52,250 nucleotides of DNA, taken from Flavobacteriales bacterium. Lineage in GTDB: Bacteria > Bacteroidota > Bacteroidia > Flavobacteriales_D > Sanyastnellaceae. The position numbers were made by a program, and so were the translations under genes. Positions within the stretch are counted from its first letter, which is position 1, and every line of letters begins with the position of its first letter. The notes beneath the pieces are model-generated. The model did no database searches. It was given only the letters and a program-made list of their open reading frames with translations, and was not told the origin of the DNA. The DNA is taken from contig PKDZ01000027.1 in NCBI GenBank assembly GCA_002862785.1, forward strand, positions 1 through 52,250. Reading direction: 5' to 3'. Positions 47,550-52,061 of the stretch are shown in pieces.

Positions 47550-47557
47550 TACCTTTC
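47550..47557 (+). promoter_or_regulatory. Candidate -7 box TACCTTTC of the TPR protein gene
   Basis: TACCTTTC is followed by CCAAC and the ATG at 47563. It deviates from the consensus only at the last base. It lies in the 47 bases between divergent helicase and TPR genes. Confidence 0.35.
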
Positions 47558-47562
47558 CCAAC

Positions 47563-48351
47563 ATGAAAGGAAACCTGCACCTCTTTTCCCTGCTGGCCCT
47601 CGTTTTCGCCCTGTTCGGCTCCATCTCGGACGCCGAAGCCCAGGACCCGAAATACAGCCGAATGCTCGAAGACCTTGTCGATGGGAAATACGAGCGCGTC
47701 CTCTTCCGGGCGATCGGATTCACCGAAAAGGAGAACACCAAGAAGCACCCGGAGCCTTACGGATACATGGCCCGGGCCTATCTGAAGATTCACCAAAGCG
47801 ATGATCCGGAGCTCAAGGAGAATTATCCCAAAGCCCTGAAGGAGAGCCTGAAATACTGCACCAAGTTCATCAAGAAGGACAAGGAAATGGAGTACGTTCC
47901 GGACCAACTCGACTTCATTGAAGAGCTCCGCTTCGAGACCATCGCGCAGGCCGACACCGAGATGGACGCCGAGAAATACACCCGCGCCAAGAGTCTCTAC
48001 AGCTATCTGACGAAACTGGACAAGAGCGATCCGGCCGCCTATGTCATGCTCGGCCTGGCGAACTACTACGCCCGAGCCACCCGCGATGCGACCGAACATT
48101 GGGGCGTCGCCATCGAACTCATGGGCAGCATGACCGGCCGCATTCCGGCCAGCGAGGAAATCGAGAATTTCCGAGACGAGCCCTTGACGGAGTCCATGGA
48201 GAACCTTCTGAAAACCGGCATCATCCGGGCCTCCGAACAACTCGATGCCGATGGCCAGCGCACCCAGGCCATCGAACTGCTTGAGAGCGGCTTGCCCATC
48301 TTCGAAGGGGAACGCAGCTTCATGGTGACCTACGGCTCCATCGTCGGCTGA
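47563..48351 (+). CDS. Secreted TPR-like protein of unknown function
   Basis: The ATG at 47563 gives 262 residues with a typical signal peptide (HLFSLLALVFALFGSISDAEA). The mature part is helical and repeat-like: YSRMLEDLVDGKYERVLFRA, YGYMARAYLKIHQSDDPELK, AEKYTRAKSLYSYLTKLDKS and AAYVMLGLANYYARATRDA look like TPR units. I do not recognise a specific family. It probably lies in the periplasm. Its TGA shares one base with the ATG of the following kinase gene, so the two are likely translated together, which hints at a sensory or scaffold role for this protein. Confidence 0.72.
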   Translation: MKGNLHLFSLLALVFALFGSISDAEAQDPKYSRMLEDLVDGKYERVLFRAIGFTEKENTKKHPEPYGYMARAYLKIHQSDDPELKENYPKALKESLKYCTKFIKKDKEMEYVPDQLDFIEELRFETIAQADTEMDAEKYTRAKSLYSYLTKLDKSDPAAYVMLGLANYYARATRDATEHWGVAIELMGSMTGRIPASEEIENFRDEPLTESMENLLKTGIIRASEQLDADGQRTQAIELLESGLPIFEGERSFMVTYGSIVG

Positions 48352-49499
48352 TGCAGCAAAAGGGCGGTGCTTCCTTGCCAGACCGCAGGAGACACCCCCT
48401 GCTGAATCGGGATTCCAACACCCCCCTCGACCTCCTTCATCTGGAGGACAATGACATCGATGCCACCATTTTCATGGGGGCCGCCGCACAGTGCAGACGC
48501 AACCTGGTTGTCCGGAGGGTCGAAAACCTCGTCGATTTCGAGGCGGCATTGGTGACTCGATTGCCCGATGTCATTTGCGCGGACCACCTGCTGCCCGACG
48601 GAAGCGCAACCGAAGCTCTTCGATTGCGGAACGAATTCAGTCCCCAATCTCCTTTCATTGTCATCACGGGCGCCGGTGAAGAGGAGGTCGCGGTCGACTA
48701 CATGCGAAACGGCGCCTCAGATTATCTGTCCAAACGGCGTCTGGACCAATTCCCTCTCGCCCTCGACAATGTCCTCGAAGCCTACCGCAACCGAGCGCTG
48801 AGGCACATCGCCGAACAGGAAACTGAACGGCTCAATGAAGAACTGCTGGCCTTGATCCGACACGTGGAAGGTGAGCGCGACGAAGAGAAGAGAAGCCTGT
48901 CCAGGGACATCCACGACCAACTCGGCCAGGAACTGACCGCTTTGAAATTGGGGCTATTCTGGATCGACCGTCAGCTGGGAATGGACGAGTTGGATCGGGA
49001 CGGAACCCGCAGCAAGCTCCTCGAATTGGTCGACCTCAATACCGAAATCATCCAGCAAGTCCGCAACATCGCCCGCGCCTTGCGGCCGGTCGTGCTCGAC
49101 CAAGTGGGACTTTCGGCCGGCATCGAAACCCTGGTTCAGGACTTCAACAGGCGGGAAAAGACGCTCTGCGGTCTGCACATCAAAGACTTGCCGGATTTGG
49201 AAGAAGAAATGCGAACCGATTTGTTCCGCATCGTGCAAGAGGCCCTCACGAACATTGCGCGACATGCCGAAGCGGATTTCGCTTATGTGCGTTTGTCTCC
49301 GAAGGAAGGCCAATTGGTTCTTGAAATCGGGGACAATGGCAAAGGCATGCCAGGAGGCGTCACCTCCGAAACGGCCGGTCTAGGCATGGTCGGCATCCGC
49401 GAGCGCGTGCGCAACCACAAGGGCGCCTTTCACGTGAGTTCACAAACCGGAGGTGGCACTTCCATGCTCGTGACCATGCCCCTGACCACAAAACCGTAA
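48351..49499 (+). CDS. Hybrid sensor with N-terminal receiver domain and HisKA_3 histidine kinase
   Basis: The 382-residue protein begins with a receiver domain (about 25-145): acidic pair Glu32/Asp33, phospho-acceptor Asp78 in VICADHLLPDG, Thr106 and Lys128 in SDYLSKRRL. All key residues are present. A helical linker (about 150-180) leads to a HisKA_3 domain with the phospho-acceptor His188 in SRDIHDQLGQELTALKLGL, then a GHKL ATPase domain (FRIVQEALTNIARHAEA, LEIGDNGKGMPGG, GLGMVGIRERVRNHKG). No membrane span or periplasmic sensor is present, so input must come through the receiver or a partner. The NarL-type regulator follows after 9 bases. Confidence 0.88.
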   Translation: MQQKGGASLPDRRRHPLLNRDSNTPLDLLHLEDNDIDATIFMGAAAQCRRNLVVRRVENLVDFEAALVTRLPDVICADHLLPDGSATEALRLRNEFSPQSPFIVITGAGEEEVAVDYMRNGASDYLSKRRLDQFPLALDNVLEAYRNRALRHIAEQETERLNEELLALIRHVEGERDEEKRSLSRDIHDQLGQELTALKLGLFWIDRQLGMDELDRDGTRSKLLELVDLNTEIIQQVRNIARALRPVVLDQVGLSAGIETLVQDFNRREKTLCGLHIKDLPDLEEEMRTDLFRIVQEALTNIARHAEADFAYVRLSPKEGQLVLEIGDNGKGMPGGVTSETAGLGMVGIRERVRNHKGAFHVSSQTGGGTSMLVTMPLTTKP

Positions 49500-49504
49500 A
49501 TTCC
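49497..49504 (+). promoter_or_regulatory. Candidate -7 box TAAATTCC before the response regulator
   Basis: TAAATTCC overlaps the kinase stop codon and is followed by CAAC and the ATG at 49509. It misses the consensus at the last base. It could be an internal leaderless promoter for the regulator. Confidence 0.3.
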
Positions 49505-49508
49505 CAAC

Positions 49509-50177
49509 ATGGCAAAGAAAACCGTCGTCCTGTGCGATGACCACAACATCGTCCGGGCAGGTCTCCGCCAGATTGTGGAATCCTTCGGAGACTTCGAAGT
49601 CCTCGATGACGTGGCCAGCGGAGAGGCCCTCTTCCCCTTGTTCCGGAAACAGACCCCGAACATTCTTTTGCTCGACATCAGCCTTCCAGGGCGGAGCGGA
49701 CTCGAGGTCCTCAAGCAAATCCAATCCCTGTACCCGGAAGTGGCCGTGCTCGCTCTCAGCATGTATCCCGAGGATCAGTTCGCCATCCGGATGATCAAAG
49801 CCGGAGCCCGGGGCTACTTGCACAAAGACAGCGCTCCGAAGATTCTCGAGGACGCCATGCGGACCATCGTCGAGGGCAAGCAGTACATCAGTGCCGACTT
49901 GACCCGCCTCATGATCGAGGAGATGGCCAAGGACGACAACGACCTGCCGCACAAGAGCTTGTCGGACCGCGAATATGAAGTCCTCCTCTACATCGGGGAA
50001 GGCAAGACGATGACCGAAATTGCGAACCAGCTCAGCCTGAGCATCAAGACGGTCAGCACCTACCGGAGCCGAATCCTGGAAAAGATGAGGCTGAAGAGCA
50101 ATTCCGACCTCGTCAAATACATTCTGCTCCACGATCTCTCCCCGGGCGGAAGCGACCCCGTTCACAAGGTTGACTGA
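49509..50177 (+). CDS. NarL/LuxR-family response regulator
   Basis: The 222-residue protein has a standard receiver domain (Asp10/Asp11 in LCDDHNIVRAG, phospho-acceptor Asp56 in LLLDISLPGRSG, Lys106 in YLHKDSAP) and a C-terminal LuxR helix-turn-helix (about 150-215, LSDREYEVLLYIGEGKTMTE, then LSLSIKTVSTYRSRILEKM). It is the natural partner of the HisKA_3 kinase encoded just upstream, since this kinase class pairs with NarL-type regulators. Its target promoters are not visible. An inverted repeat follows at 50216-50249. Confidence 0.93.
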   Translation: MAKKTVVLCDDHNIVRAGLRQIVESFGDFEVLDDVASGEALFPLFRKQTPNILLLDISLPGRSGLEVLKQIQSLYPEVAVLALSMYPEDQFAIRMIKAGARGYLHKDSAPKILEDAMRTIVEGKQYISADLTRLMIEEMAKDDNDLPHKSLSDREYEVLLYIGEGKTMTEIANQLSLSIKTVSTYRSRILEKMRLKSNSDLVKYILLHDLSPGGSDPVHKVD

Positions 50178-50215
50178 CAAGGCCATCAGACGAATCCCAC
50201 CACATCGCATCGGCC

Positions 50216-50249
50216 ATGACCGACACGGAGTGAACGACCATCCGGTCAT
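50216..50249. repeat. Inverted repeat ATGACCG-N20-CGGTCAT
   Basis: Perfect 7-base arms at 50216-50222 and 50243-50249 flank a 20-base loop in the 84-base gap between the response regulator and the phosphatase gene. A smaller GACC-ATCC-GGTC hairpin lies across the right arm. No T-run follows, so it is not a standard terminator; it could be a binding site for the NarL-type regulator or chance. Confidence 0.3.
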
Positions 50250-50261
50250 CTTGAGGTCGTC

Positions 50262-52061
50262 ATGCGCCCTGAGGCCTTCCTCACCACACCCTCCCCGTCC
50301 ATGCTGAAAACCGATGTTCTTCGCGTCGGTCTCCTGCATGCCTCTCTTGCTGCGCGGTCCAAATGGCCGGATGCGCTGCCTGGTGGTCGACCAATGGAGT
50401 GGAACGTGGTGCAAGGAGATCTCGACCAAGTCGAGCCCGATGTGTGGGTACTCGGAACCTCAGGGACCGTCAAGCAGCGCCTTGCCAGCTTTGCCTCCAT
50501 CCAGACTGGCGGACCACTCGACATTCCCATCTTGGTCCTTCTCAACCCACGAGAAGACCAGACTCCCTGGCTGTCACTCAATGCGGACGGATACCACGAA
50601 ATCAGCAGCAGTGCCGCCTTGATGGCCCAGAGAATCGGGGCCATGCTCCCCTCCCCGGGAACCAAAACACGCCAAGATTTCCCGAGCTCCCGAAACCTGC
50701 TCGCCATGGAAGAAGCCGCCCGATGGCAGGCCACATTCAACGCAGCCGGGGCCGGAATTCTGACCGGCCGCACCTCAAGGTTCTTTGACGCCTTGCCCAC
50801 ACTCGGCAAAAAGACCTCGTCCGCCTCGTCCGAAGCGCTCCTCGAACTCAGCCGAGGCCTCCTTCGTACCATTGATTGGGAACTGAACAACCAACAAGCC
50901 AAGGCCCTTTTGGAACTCCGAGAGCCAATTGCCCTCGATTCCGGCTTCATCGACCGGCTGACTCCGCTCCACGGTGGCCAATTCCTCTCCGACGTCATGT
51001 CGCTGGGACGAGGAGCTTCCCGTAGCCAGAGCGAATGGATCTGTCGAAACCCAAACGGCAACCGCTATCTCAGTCTCGAAATCACAGTGCCCAACAGCCT
51101 CGAGGATTGCCTCTTTGTAACGCTGCTCGACATCTCGGAACGCATGCGCCTCGAGCAGGAACTCCGCGATCACGTCCAAACCTTGGAGGACCGGGTTGAA
51201 AAACGGACACGAGACCTCCAGGTCGTCAACCAGCGACTCAATGCGGAAGCCACGCAGAGACAGCGCCTGGCCCAACAGGTACGCGAAAGCCTGGTTCACA
51301 TCACACAGGGTGTCATCACCGCCAAGCAAATCCTAGAAGTGGCGTTGCCCGGCAAGGCCAAGCTCAAGTCCATCTTCTCCAAGTCCATGGTTATTGAACG
51401 TCCCCGGGACATCCTCGGTGGCGACTTCCTTCATGTCCAAGGCAACGATACATTCGACACGCTCGCCCTTGTGGACAGCACCGGACACGGAATTCCGGGA
51501 GCGATGGTCTCTTTGATGGGGTACACCCTGCTCCAGGAAGCCATCAGTTCCACCCCGGACCAGAGTCCCAAATGCATCCTCGAAGTCTTTCATGCCGCCT
51601 TCGTGGAACGCATGAAGAGTCAATCCGAAGACCCACAGATGTATGGCTTTGACGCTGGCATCGTCACCTTCGAACGGTCAACGGCCGTGCTTCGCTTCGC
51701 CGGAGCCAGAGAAGATCTGTATCTCGTTCGCGATGGAGAGTGCATCATTCACCGCGGATCCCGCTGCAGCATCGAACTCGCCACCTTCGCCGGTGTGCGG
51801 AGCCGCTGCCCTGAATTCGAAGAGTCCACCATCCCTTTGCGTTCGGGAGACCAGATCTACCTCAGCACGGATGGCGTCCGGGACCAGTTCGGAGGACCGA
51901 ACAACCGGAAACTGGGACGCAAGCGGTTCGCCGACATCTTGGTCCGCCATGCGGCCTTGCCGTTGAAACAGCGCAAGAAGGCCATCCAAAAGGACTTGCT
52001 GCTGTGGAAAGGAGCCAACGCCAAGGTGGACGACGCGACGCTCGTTGGTTTCGACGTGTGA
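50262..52061 (+). CDS. SpoIIE/PP2C-type phosphatase with receiver-like N-terminus, PAS-like domain and coiled coil
   Basis: The 599-residue cytoplasmic protein has four parts. Residues 15-130 alternate strands and helices like a receiver domain (VLRVGLLHAS, WVLGTSGTV, IPILVLLNP, GYHEISSSAAL) but lack the phosphorylatable aspartate. Residues about 205-295 resemble a PAS domain ending FVTLLDISERM. A coiled coil spans 295-345. The rest is a SpoIIE phosphatase with metal aspartates in RDILGGDF (388), LALVDSTGHGIPGAMVS (405) and DDATLVGF (590-591). Such enzymes dephosphorylate anti-sigma-factor antagonists. The start may also be the ATG at 50301, which better fits the first strand. Confidence 0.85.
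   Translation: MRPEAFLTTPSPSMLKTDVLRVGLLHASLAARSKWPDALPGGRPMEWNVVQGDLDQVEPDVWVLGTSGTVKQRLASFASIQTGGPLDIPILVLLNPREDQTPWLSLNADGYHEISSSAALMAQRIGAMLPSPGTKTRQDFPSSRNLLAMEEAARWQATFNAAGAGILTGRTSRFFDALPTLGKKTSSASSEALLELSRGLLRTIDWELNNQQAKALLELREPIALDSGFIDRLTPLHGGQFLSDVMSLGRGASRSQSEWICRNPNGNRYLSLEITVPNSLEDCLFVTLLDISERMRLEQELRDHVQTLEDRVEKRTRDLQVVNQRLNAEATQRQRLAQQVRESLVHITQGVITAKQILEVALPGKAKLKSIFSKSMVIERPRDILGGDFLHVQGNDTFDTLALVDSTGHGIPGAMVSLMGYTLLQEAISSTPDQSPKCILEVFHAAFVERMKSQSEDPQMYGFDAGIVTFERSTAVLRFAGAREDLYLVRDGECIIHRGSRCSIELATFAGVRSRCPEFEESTIPLRSGDQIYLSTDGVRDQFGGPNNRKLGRKRFADILVRHAALPLKQRKKAIQKDLLLWKGANAKVDDATLVGFDV

Follow-up and report, generated by a model that had tools for sequence, protein, structure and literature searches.

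Does a small operon of a Flavobacteriales bacterium tie a two-component phosphorelay to partner switching, and by which route could it do so? The question is raised by four genes on contig PKDZ01000027.1 (G000:C13) of assembly GCA_002862785.1, a genome of 2.44 Mb in 92 contigs; the window, i.e. the whole stretch of DNA analysed, is this entire contig of 52250 bases. All on the plus strand, the genes encode a predicted secreted tetratricopeptide repeat (TPR)-like protein (47563-48351), a soluble histidine kinase (48351-49499), a NarL-type response regulator (49509-50177) and a SpoIIE/PP2C (PPM) serine/threonine phosphatase (50262-52061), with intergenic gaps of -1, 9 and 84 bases. An initial annotation, made from the sequence alone, had placed these genes head to tail with one base shared by the first two, and this is how they lie, as the A at 48351 is common to the TGA of the TPR gene and the ATG of the kinase gene (TGATG). 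The same annotation considered that the cluster could link a phosphorelay to a sigma factor switch. The reading preferred here, to which we assign a probability of about 0.5, is that of a reduced, lineage-specific Flavobacteriales operon with a pseudo-receiver phosphatase, which is governed by a PAS-like domain and a linker and acts in trans on a partner-switch protein, most likely a STAS protein.

Central to this answer is the phosphatase of 599 amino acids, composed of a pseudo-receiver lacking helix alpha-2 (approximately residues 18-130; 50313-50651), a PAS-like domain (approximately residues 143-290; 50688-51131), a predicted helix of 70 residues (292-361; 51135-51344) that is a putative coiled-coil linker, and the PP2C catalytic domain (51345-52058); it has no membrane span. 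Its initial assignment as SpoIIE-type is confirmed by PF07228 (61.3 bits, cut-off 25), and D388, D405, D464, D537, D590 and D591, which we take to be metal ligands, are invariant in 22 aligned orthologues. The N-terminus matches neither a Pfam receiver nor a Pfam PAS model; the earlier label 'receiver-like' is supported by alignment with the orthologue in locus L084, where Pfam recognises the receiver, and by the predicted fold. Built on an alignment of 22 sequences, the AlphaFold2 model (mean predicted local distance difference test score, pLDDT, 79.7 and predicted template modelling score, pTM, 0.46 for the whole protein; 83.5 and 0.52 for residues 1-299) arranges the strands and helices of residues 20-128 much as in a receiver, though with helix alpha-2 missing, and continues with a PAS-like domain at 143-290 and a single helix at 292-361, followed by the PP2C domain. 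The best Foldseek match of the whole protein is the PP2C domain of SiaA (29-30% identity, TM-score 0.88-0.89 over that domain); in a sequence comparison with the PDB, SiaA alone reaches E <= 0.001 (E 1.2e-31). Matches of the N-terminal model to receiver and PAS structures are weak, with 2 of 924 at E <= 0.001, and the receiver match 5dcl has an E value of 0.021 and a TM-score of 0.72 over the target.

The decay of the receiver was scored at five positions, the acidic pair, the phospho-accepting Asp, the Thr and the Lys, against the intact receiver of G021. All six phosphatase receivers examined from other genera (of 11 known) have E, D, D, T and K; the window phosphatase has H, S, G, L and S. 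Its N-terminus is thus a predicted receiver-like fold without the phosphotransfer residues, a pseudo-receiver, and not the phosphorylatable PP2C receiver of the RsbK-RsbY and RsfS-RsfR type. Within the genus of the window (g1; its family is f1, both being labels of the genome search) the region is missing in two of 16 phosphatases (G002 and G004), none of the 14 that retain it has the receiver Lys, and those of G010 and G003 carry Glu at the phospho site. Because none of the five phosphorylation residues is left, direct phospho-control of the window phosphatase by the kinase has probably been lost, and the link from phosphorelay to phosphatase is not borne out through this domain; judged from the residues, it is plausible for relatives in other genera alone and probably broken in the window's genus. 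The domain is nonetheless not debris, since its ratio of non-synonymous to synonymous substitutions (dN/dS) against the nearest relative G008 of 0.13, like that of the remainder of the gene (0.10-0.15), indicates purifying selection.

Whether these genes belong together was assessed in 17 TPR loci of g1, taken from a set of 60 relatives and the own genome, with synteny counts built on best-hit open reading frames, which replaced greedy longest-frame calls that had picked shadow frames in GC-rich genomes. The kinase gene directly follows the TPR gene in 17/17 loci, and all four genes are on one contig in 14, with contig ends cutting the loci of G015, G009 and G004. In G004 a second contig opens with the end of the regulator gene and then the phosphatase gene, in G009 the phosphatase gene is on a separate contig, and in G015 no phosphatase orthologue was found. 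A PP2C gene follows the regulator gene in all 15 genomes with a visible next gene; the kinase frame of G016 is broken, and the phosphatase gene of G013 has an in-frame TAA. Co-occurrence in relatives, which the initial annotation had named as its test, is therefore observed: the genes stay together, phosphatase orthologues are found at this locus wherever the contig allows a view, and separation of the genes or a phosphatase tied to other loci does not apply. Conserved order and orientation, together with a dN/dS of 0.03-0.13 for the four genes against G008, argue that the cluster is not a chance arrangement, and kinase and PP2C are encoded together as in the RsbK-RsbY and RsfS-RsfR type. Among records with a name, the locus has its nearest counterparts in metagenome-assembled Flavobacteriales genomes, one of them labelled Crocinitomicaceae bacterium TMED114.

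Beyond the genus, 39 TPR loci of other f1 genera were inspected, fetched from part of the 104 TPR-positive genomes among 114 f1 genomes and leaving out G023 with its fragmentary TPR match. Eleven of them, from six genera, carry a larger cassette in the order TPR, solo receiver, kinase, NarL, NarL and receiver-PP2C, all on the plus strand relative to the TPR gene; domains were assigned by Pfam in one locus (L084 of g6, with a REC-PAS-HisKA_3 kinase and a REC-PP2C phosphatase) and by BLAST and alignment in the others. A further locus (g18, G060; L271, cf. L173) has TPR, kinase and two regulators without solo receiver and PP2C, a type of cassette that within f1 is an intermediate or a loss; 23 loci have no cassette at all and four are too short. 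A PP2C gene hence follows the regulator in 11 of the 12 other-genus f1 loci that have regulators, which together with g1 makes seven genera. The cassette phosphatase looks orthologous across genera, as a single branch (99/97) separates the catalytic parts of 20 cassette PP2Cs from 14 other PP2Cs of the family and order in a midpoint-rooted tree, from which four other PP2Cs without the trimming motif were dropped and which excludes G016, G013 and the C17 paralogue of the own genome; the phosphatases of G002 and G004 split from the remaining g1 sequences. A tree of the Lhr-like DEAD helicase, the gene of which is divergent from the TPR gene, has g9, g11 and g19 among the cassette genera and g3, g5 and g10 (without cassette) and g13 (too short) outside. 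It suggests at least one loss of the cassette, though with long branches and a midpoint root it is not relied upon, and g19, whose contig stops at the TPR gene, shows nothing of its cassette state.

More distant relatives delimit the operon further. Among 19 loci from 17 genomes of ten other families of the order (G053, G057 and G059, which have a TPR match, were left out), two of family f5 (L174 and L176) encode TPR, a PAS-HisKA kinase, a receiver, a kinase like that of the window and a NarL regulator without PP2C, 13 have no cassette genes and four are short. A regulator-profile search of named GTDB genomes yielded 79 loci from the best 80 of 101 stretches, which share members with the unnamed set, so that the two are not independent. 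Twenty-eight are Flavobacteriales loci of this cassette kind, with PP2C as the next gene in 24; L152 ends before it, and L173, L174 and L176 are without it. The other 51 loci come from many phyla; in 46 these kinases have a match in the fetched flank, and a PP2C or TPR match in the flanks of up to 6 kb was seen in none.

If the phosphatase feeds a partner switch, its partners are encoded elsewhere. The initial annotation saw no anti-sigma or antagonist gene. This is true of the locus as far as it is visible, the contig ending at 52250, but not of the genome, which encodes a STAS protein of 131 amino acids (66.0 bits, cut-off 53.45 for TIGR00377) that contains the motif DSSGL, and an RsbW-like ATPase of 142 amino acids (83.9 bits, PF13581 cut-off 27.4). 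The STAS gene is located at L229:5855-6250, the RsbW-like gene on the minus strand at L239:5974-6402. The motif presumably holds the phosphorylated serine, and the gene adjoining the STAS gene is assumed to be that of ribonuclease Z. Eight sigma-70 region 2 matches are found in the same genome, and no cassette stretch contains a SiaC or STAS match among the matches listed. In the proposed working, the soluble kinase would transfer its phosphoryl group to the NarL regulator. In the sister genera the phosphatase receiver is probably under direct kinase control as well, by analogy with RsbK-RsbY and RsfS-RsfR, and in the window's genus this control has probably disappeared. Here the phosphatase would be governed by its PAS-like domain and dimerising helical linker, in analogy to what the available excerpt of PMC12143880 proposes for related enzymes, and by co-expression with the two-component pair. 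It would then dephosphorylate in trans the single-domain STAS antagonist, with the RsbW-like protein as candidate counter-kinase.

Several points weigh against this proposal. The PAS-like domain is identified from one model and weak Foldseek matches, and the pTM of 0.46 for the full-length model is low. In seven congeners the pseudo-receiver is 17-24% identical to that of the window, so that its alignment there is uncertain, and three acidic residues persist in the phosphatase receiver of G009. The equivalog cut-offs for RsbW (41.4 of 145 bits) and SpoIIAB (40.3 of 135 bits) are missed by a wide margin by the RsbW-like protein, and the genome has at least two further PP2Cs, each of them an alternative candidate for acting on the STAS protein. 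The g18 and f5 loci show that TPR and two-component genes occur without PP2C. No gene at the locus indicates the substrate, and the catalytic domain resembles that of SiaA, which acts on SiaC. The choice of the substrate, STAS rather than SiaC, is the weakest step of the proposal.

It could be asked whether the enzyme takes the place of SiaA alongside a SiaB-SiaC pair encoded elsewhere, with SiaC phosphorylated by SiaB and dephosphorylated by this PP2C. We regard this as unlikely, though it has points on its side. Besides the sequence and structural matches to SiaA, the own genome encodes a SiaB-family kinase (92.1 bits, NF038262 cut-off 85), and SiaC is present, unlinked to the cassette, in 14 of 16 congeners. 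In the own genome SiaC has no match, and since the equivalent site falls at the extreme end of contig C67, which stops directly after an ABC transporter gene, this absence may be an assembly gap; a true loss was rejected as unproven. On the other hand, the phosphatase scores 150.5 bits on the SiaA equivalog NF038263, with its catalytic part only, against a cut-off of 700, and the own C49 PP2C paralogue scores equally high (152.3). SiaA has a membrane span. At the locus siaB, siaC and the diguanylate cyclase gene siaD are absent, and the SiaD output seems to be missing, as a GGDEF match was found in 0/17 g1 genomes, several of which are incomplete. On the basis of the missed cut-off and the lack of a GGDEF match in these genomes, membership in SiaABCD was rejected. 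In G021 and G017, moreover, SiaC adjoins a different PP2C on the opposite strand, next to a frame with two SiaB-family matches; G017 has no GGDEF match.

Two side observations concern these genes. In G007 the SiaB-SiaC pair (L230/L231; in G008 at least SiaC) lies between a methyltransferase-like gene, labelled by eye, and the ABC transporter gene mentioned above (956-1000 amino acids). Two SiaB-family (DUF6272) matches occur in one frame of 368-403 amino acids in G017:C135, G021:C23, G022:C12, G024:C24, G040:C48 and G051:C164.

The persistence of a pseudo-receiver raises the further question of its role. It might dock to the NarL regulator or to the kinase receiver, the phosphorylation of which would then switch the phosphatase. 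A receiver-like fold retained under purifying selection, the conserved gene order and an intact receiver on the kinase but not on the phosphatase would suit such docking, and a review, in its available excerpt, calls the activation of bacterial pseudo-receivers still a mystery (PMC12632262). The domain is, however, poorly conserved in several g1 species (17-24% identity) and missing from G002 and G004, and docking is quite improbable. Extended across genera, it is a long shot that the operon preserves successive stages of a rewiring, from a receiver-PP2C directly controlled by the histidine kinase in other genera, via a pseudo-receiver-PP2C in most of g1, in which selection would have retained the domain as a docking or regulatory module for the intact receiver of the kinase or the regulator, to a linker-only PP2C in two species; if true, contact between proteins would have replaced a phosphorelay as the means of control.

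The proposal of a phosphatase acting in trans leaves kinase and regulator as, by their domains and adjacency, an apparently ordinary two-component pair. The kinase of 382 amino acids has no hydrophobic membrane span and combines a receiver (approximately residues 26-139; 48426-48767) with five of five catalytic residues, a HisKA_3 domain with the conserved phosphoacceptor His (residues 179-249; 48885-49097; 40.9 bits) and a HATPase_c domain (residues 289-379; 49215-49487; 51.8 bits), all recognised by Pfam and the latter two each above cut-off. Its partner, the regulator of 222 amino acids, is a REC-GerE protein by Pfam and has a phosphorylatable receiver, in which Asp56 and Lys106 are invariant in 17 aligned regulators, so that the pair has the composition of NarL-type two-component systems. 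Five of five catalytic residues are present in the kinase receiver of 14/17 g1 genomes; in G015 four positions can be seen and all four residues are there, the G002 receiver is degenerate and G004 has lost the domain. With respect to the two regulators of other-genus cassettes, the window regulator is 61-67% identical to the first and 59-63% to the second, and in all six genomes compared it is the first that the g1 regulator resembles more. In one g12 species the first NarL regulator is split over two frames of 139 and 87 amino acids (L166:5938-6627, also L258), and may be broken or mis-assembled.

The TPR gene, first in the operon, encodes 262 amino acids with TPR matches that are weak and under the Pfam cut-offs; its hydrophobic, signal-peptide-like N-terminus was assessed by hydropathy only (19-residue Kyte-Doolittle maximum of 1.81 at residue 3). 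The overlap with the kinase gene is 1 or 4 bases in 15/17 g1 loci, the other two values reflecting earlier start codons in the frame call, and in six other-genus cassettes the gene after TPR begins 58-105 bases downstream; the overlap of 1-4 bases is a feature of g1. Of the suggested coupling of a periplasmic TPR protein to a cytosolic kinase, the one-base overlap, the signal-like N-terminus and the soluble kinase stand, but a functional coupling is unsupported, because the gene often occurs without the cassette and the overlap is genus-specific. The TPR protein would rather be a long-standing neighbour with a putative role in signalling. Carried further, all could be mere co-directional neighbours, the phosphatase being on a shared transcript but part of an unrelated circuit and the TPR gene a bystander. 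The 23 of 39 other-genus f1 loci with TPR but no cassette, the lack of PP2C in G060 and both f5 loci, and the 84-base gap, which could hold a phosphatase promoter though a consensus scan found no promoter-like site in it, are in line with such an arrangement. It appears improbable in view of the PP2C that follows the regulator in 11/12 other-genus f1 loci and 15/15 g1 genomes across seven genera.

Concerning the surroundings, the consensus scan of the locus for promoters and terminators gave nothing above shuffled sequences. The 11-mer TTCCCAACATG occurs at 47555-47565 and 49501-49511, ending in the start codons of the TPR and regulator genes (2 matches versus 0.04 expected), and a GTGTTCCTACCTT block, which may be the operon promoter, precedes 9 of the 10 TPR starts caught by the motif scan in g1. 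Downstream of the cassette, the g1 genome L074 has a GFO/IDH/MocA oxidoreductase gene (Pfam). Behind the 11 larger cassettes lie, on the opposite strand, genes for FemAB-like proteins and glycosyltransferases; in L084 of g6 Pfam identifies FemAB/GNAT, glycosyltransferase and flippase, the first two of which are BLAST-matched in other cassette genera.

How, then, does the operon relate to known systems? RsbK is encoded together with sigB; in the genome studied here the STAS and RsbW-like genes are unlinked to the operon. In Bacillus cereus, a hybrid kinase, RsbK, and the receiver-PP2C RsbY control RsbV/RsbW/sigma-B (excerpt of PMC4574943); a two-component kinase and a PP2C with N-terminal receiver that feed a partner switch are thus already described, and this arrangement is present in the related genera. 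RsbK is a transmembrane protein according to the same excerpt; the window kinase is soluble and accompanied by a NarL co-regulator, and the window phosphatase receiver is inactive by sequence. Similarly, RsfS-RsfR of Mycobacterium smegmatis comprises a kinase and a receiver-PP2C acting on an anti-sigma antagonist, with RsfR phosphorylated on Asp74, which lowers its activity (PMC10950880, as excerpted). At the phospho-Asp position the window protein has Gly, and it contains a PAS-like domain in addition. SiaA of the Pseudomonas aeruginosa SiaABCD system, which acts on SiaC (excerpt of PMC7647112), provides the closest solved PP2C domain; it differs from the window protein, which is without membrane span, far under the equivalog cut-off and without linked siaBCD genes or a GGDEF match in the genus. 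Like RsbU, RsbP and the PPM phosphatases with coiled-coil linker, the window protein joins a sensor domain, a long helix and a PP2C domain, and linker-driven dimer activation has been proposed as general for PAS- and receiver-PPM phosphatases (PMC12143880, excerpt); unlike in RsbU and RsbP, other N-terminal domains and another operon are involved, and the mechanism suggested for the window protein is extrapolated from one monomer model. Kinase and NarL pairs occur in many phyla, in some cases together with a solo receiver; their regulators are 41-49% identical (51 loci from Deltaproteobacteria, Verrucomicrobia and others), but no PP2C or TPR match is seen in their flanks of up to 6 kb.

Cumulatively, the operon represents a stress-signalling circuit of a familiar type in a variant form, with no part that is new in kind, and the initial suggestion of an undescribed system does not hold in view of RsbK-RsbY and RsfS-RsfR. 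As far as literature listings show, new are the Flavobacteriales operon and the series from receiver via pseudo-receiver to none within it; neither such a series nor a tie of two-component signalling to partner switching in Flavobacteriales was found in titles and abstract starts of the open-licence PubMed Central literature. If right, the genus and its sister genera provide a natural series, in which orthologous phosphatases of orthologous operons bear a receiver, a pseudo-receiver or neither. It would allow a direct test of modular PPM sensor domains acting through a linker helix and of the role of pseudo-receivers, and partner switching in Flavobacteriales would be connected with a two-component pair.

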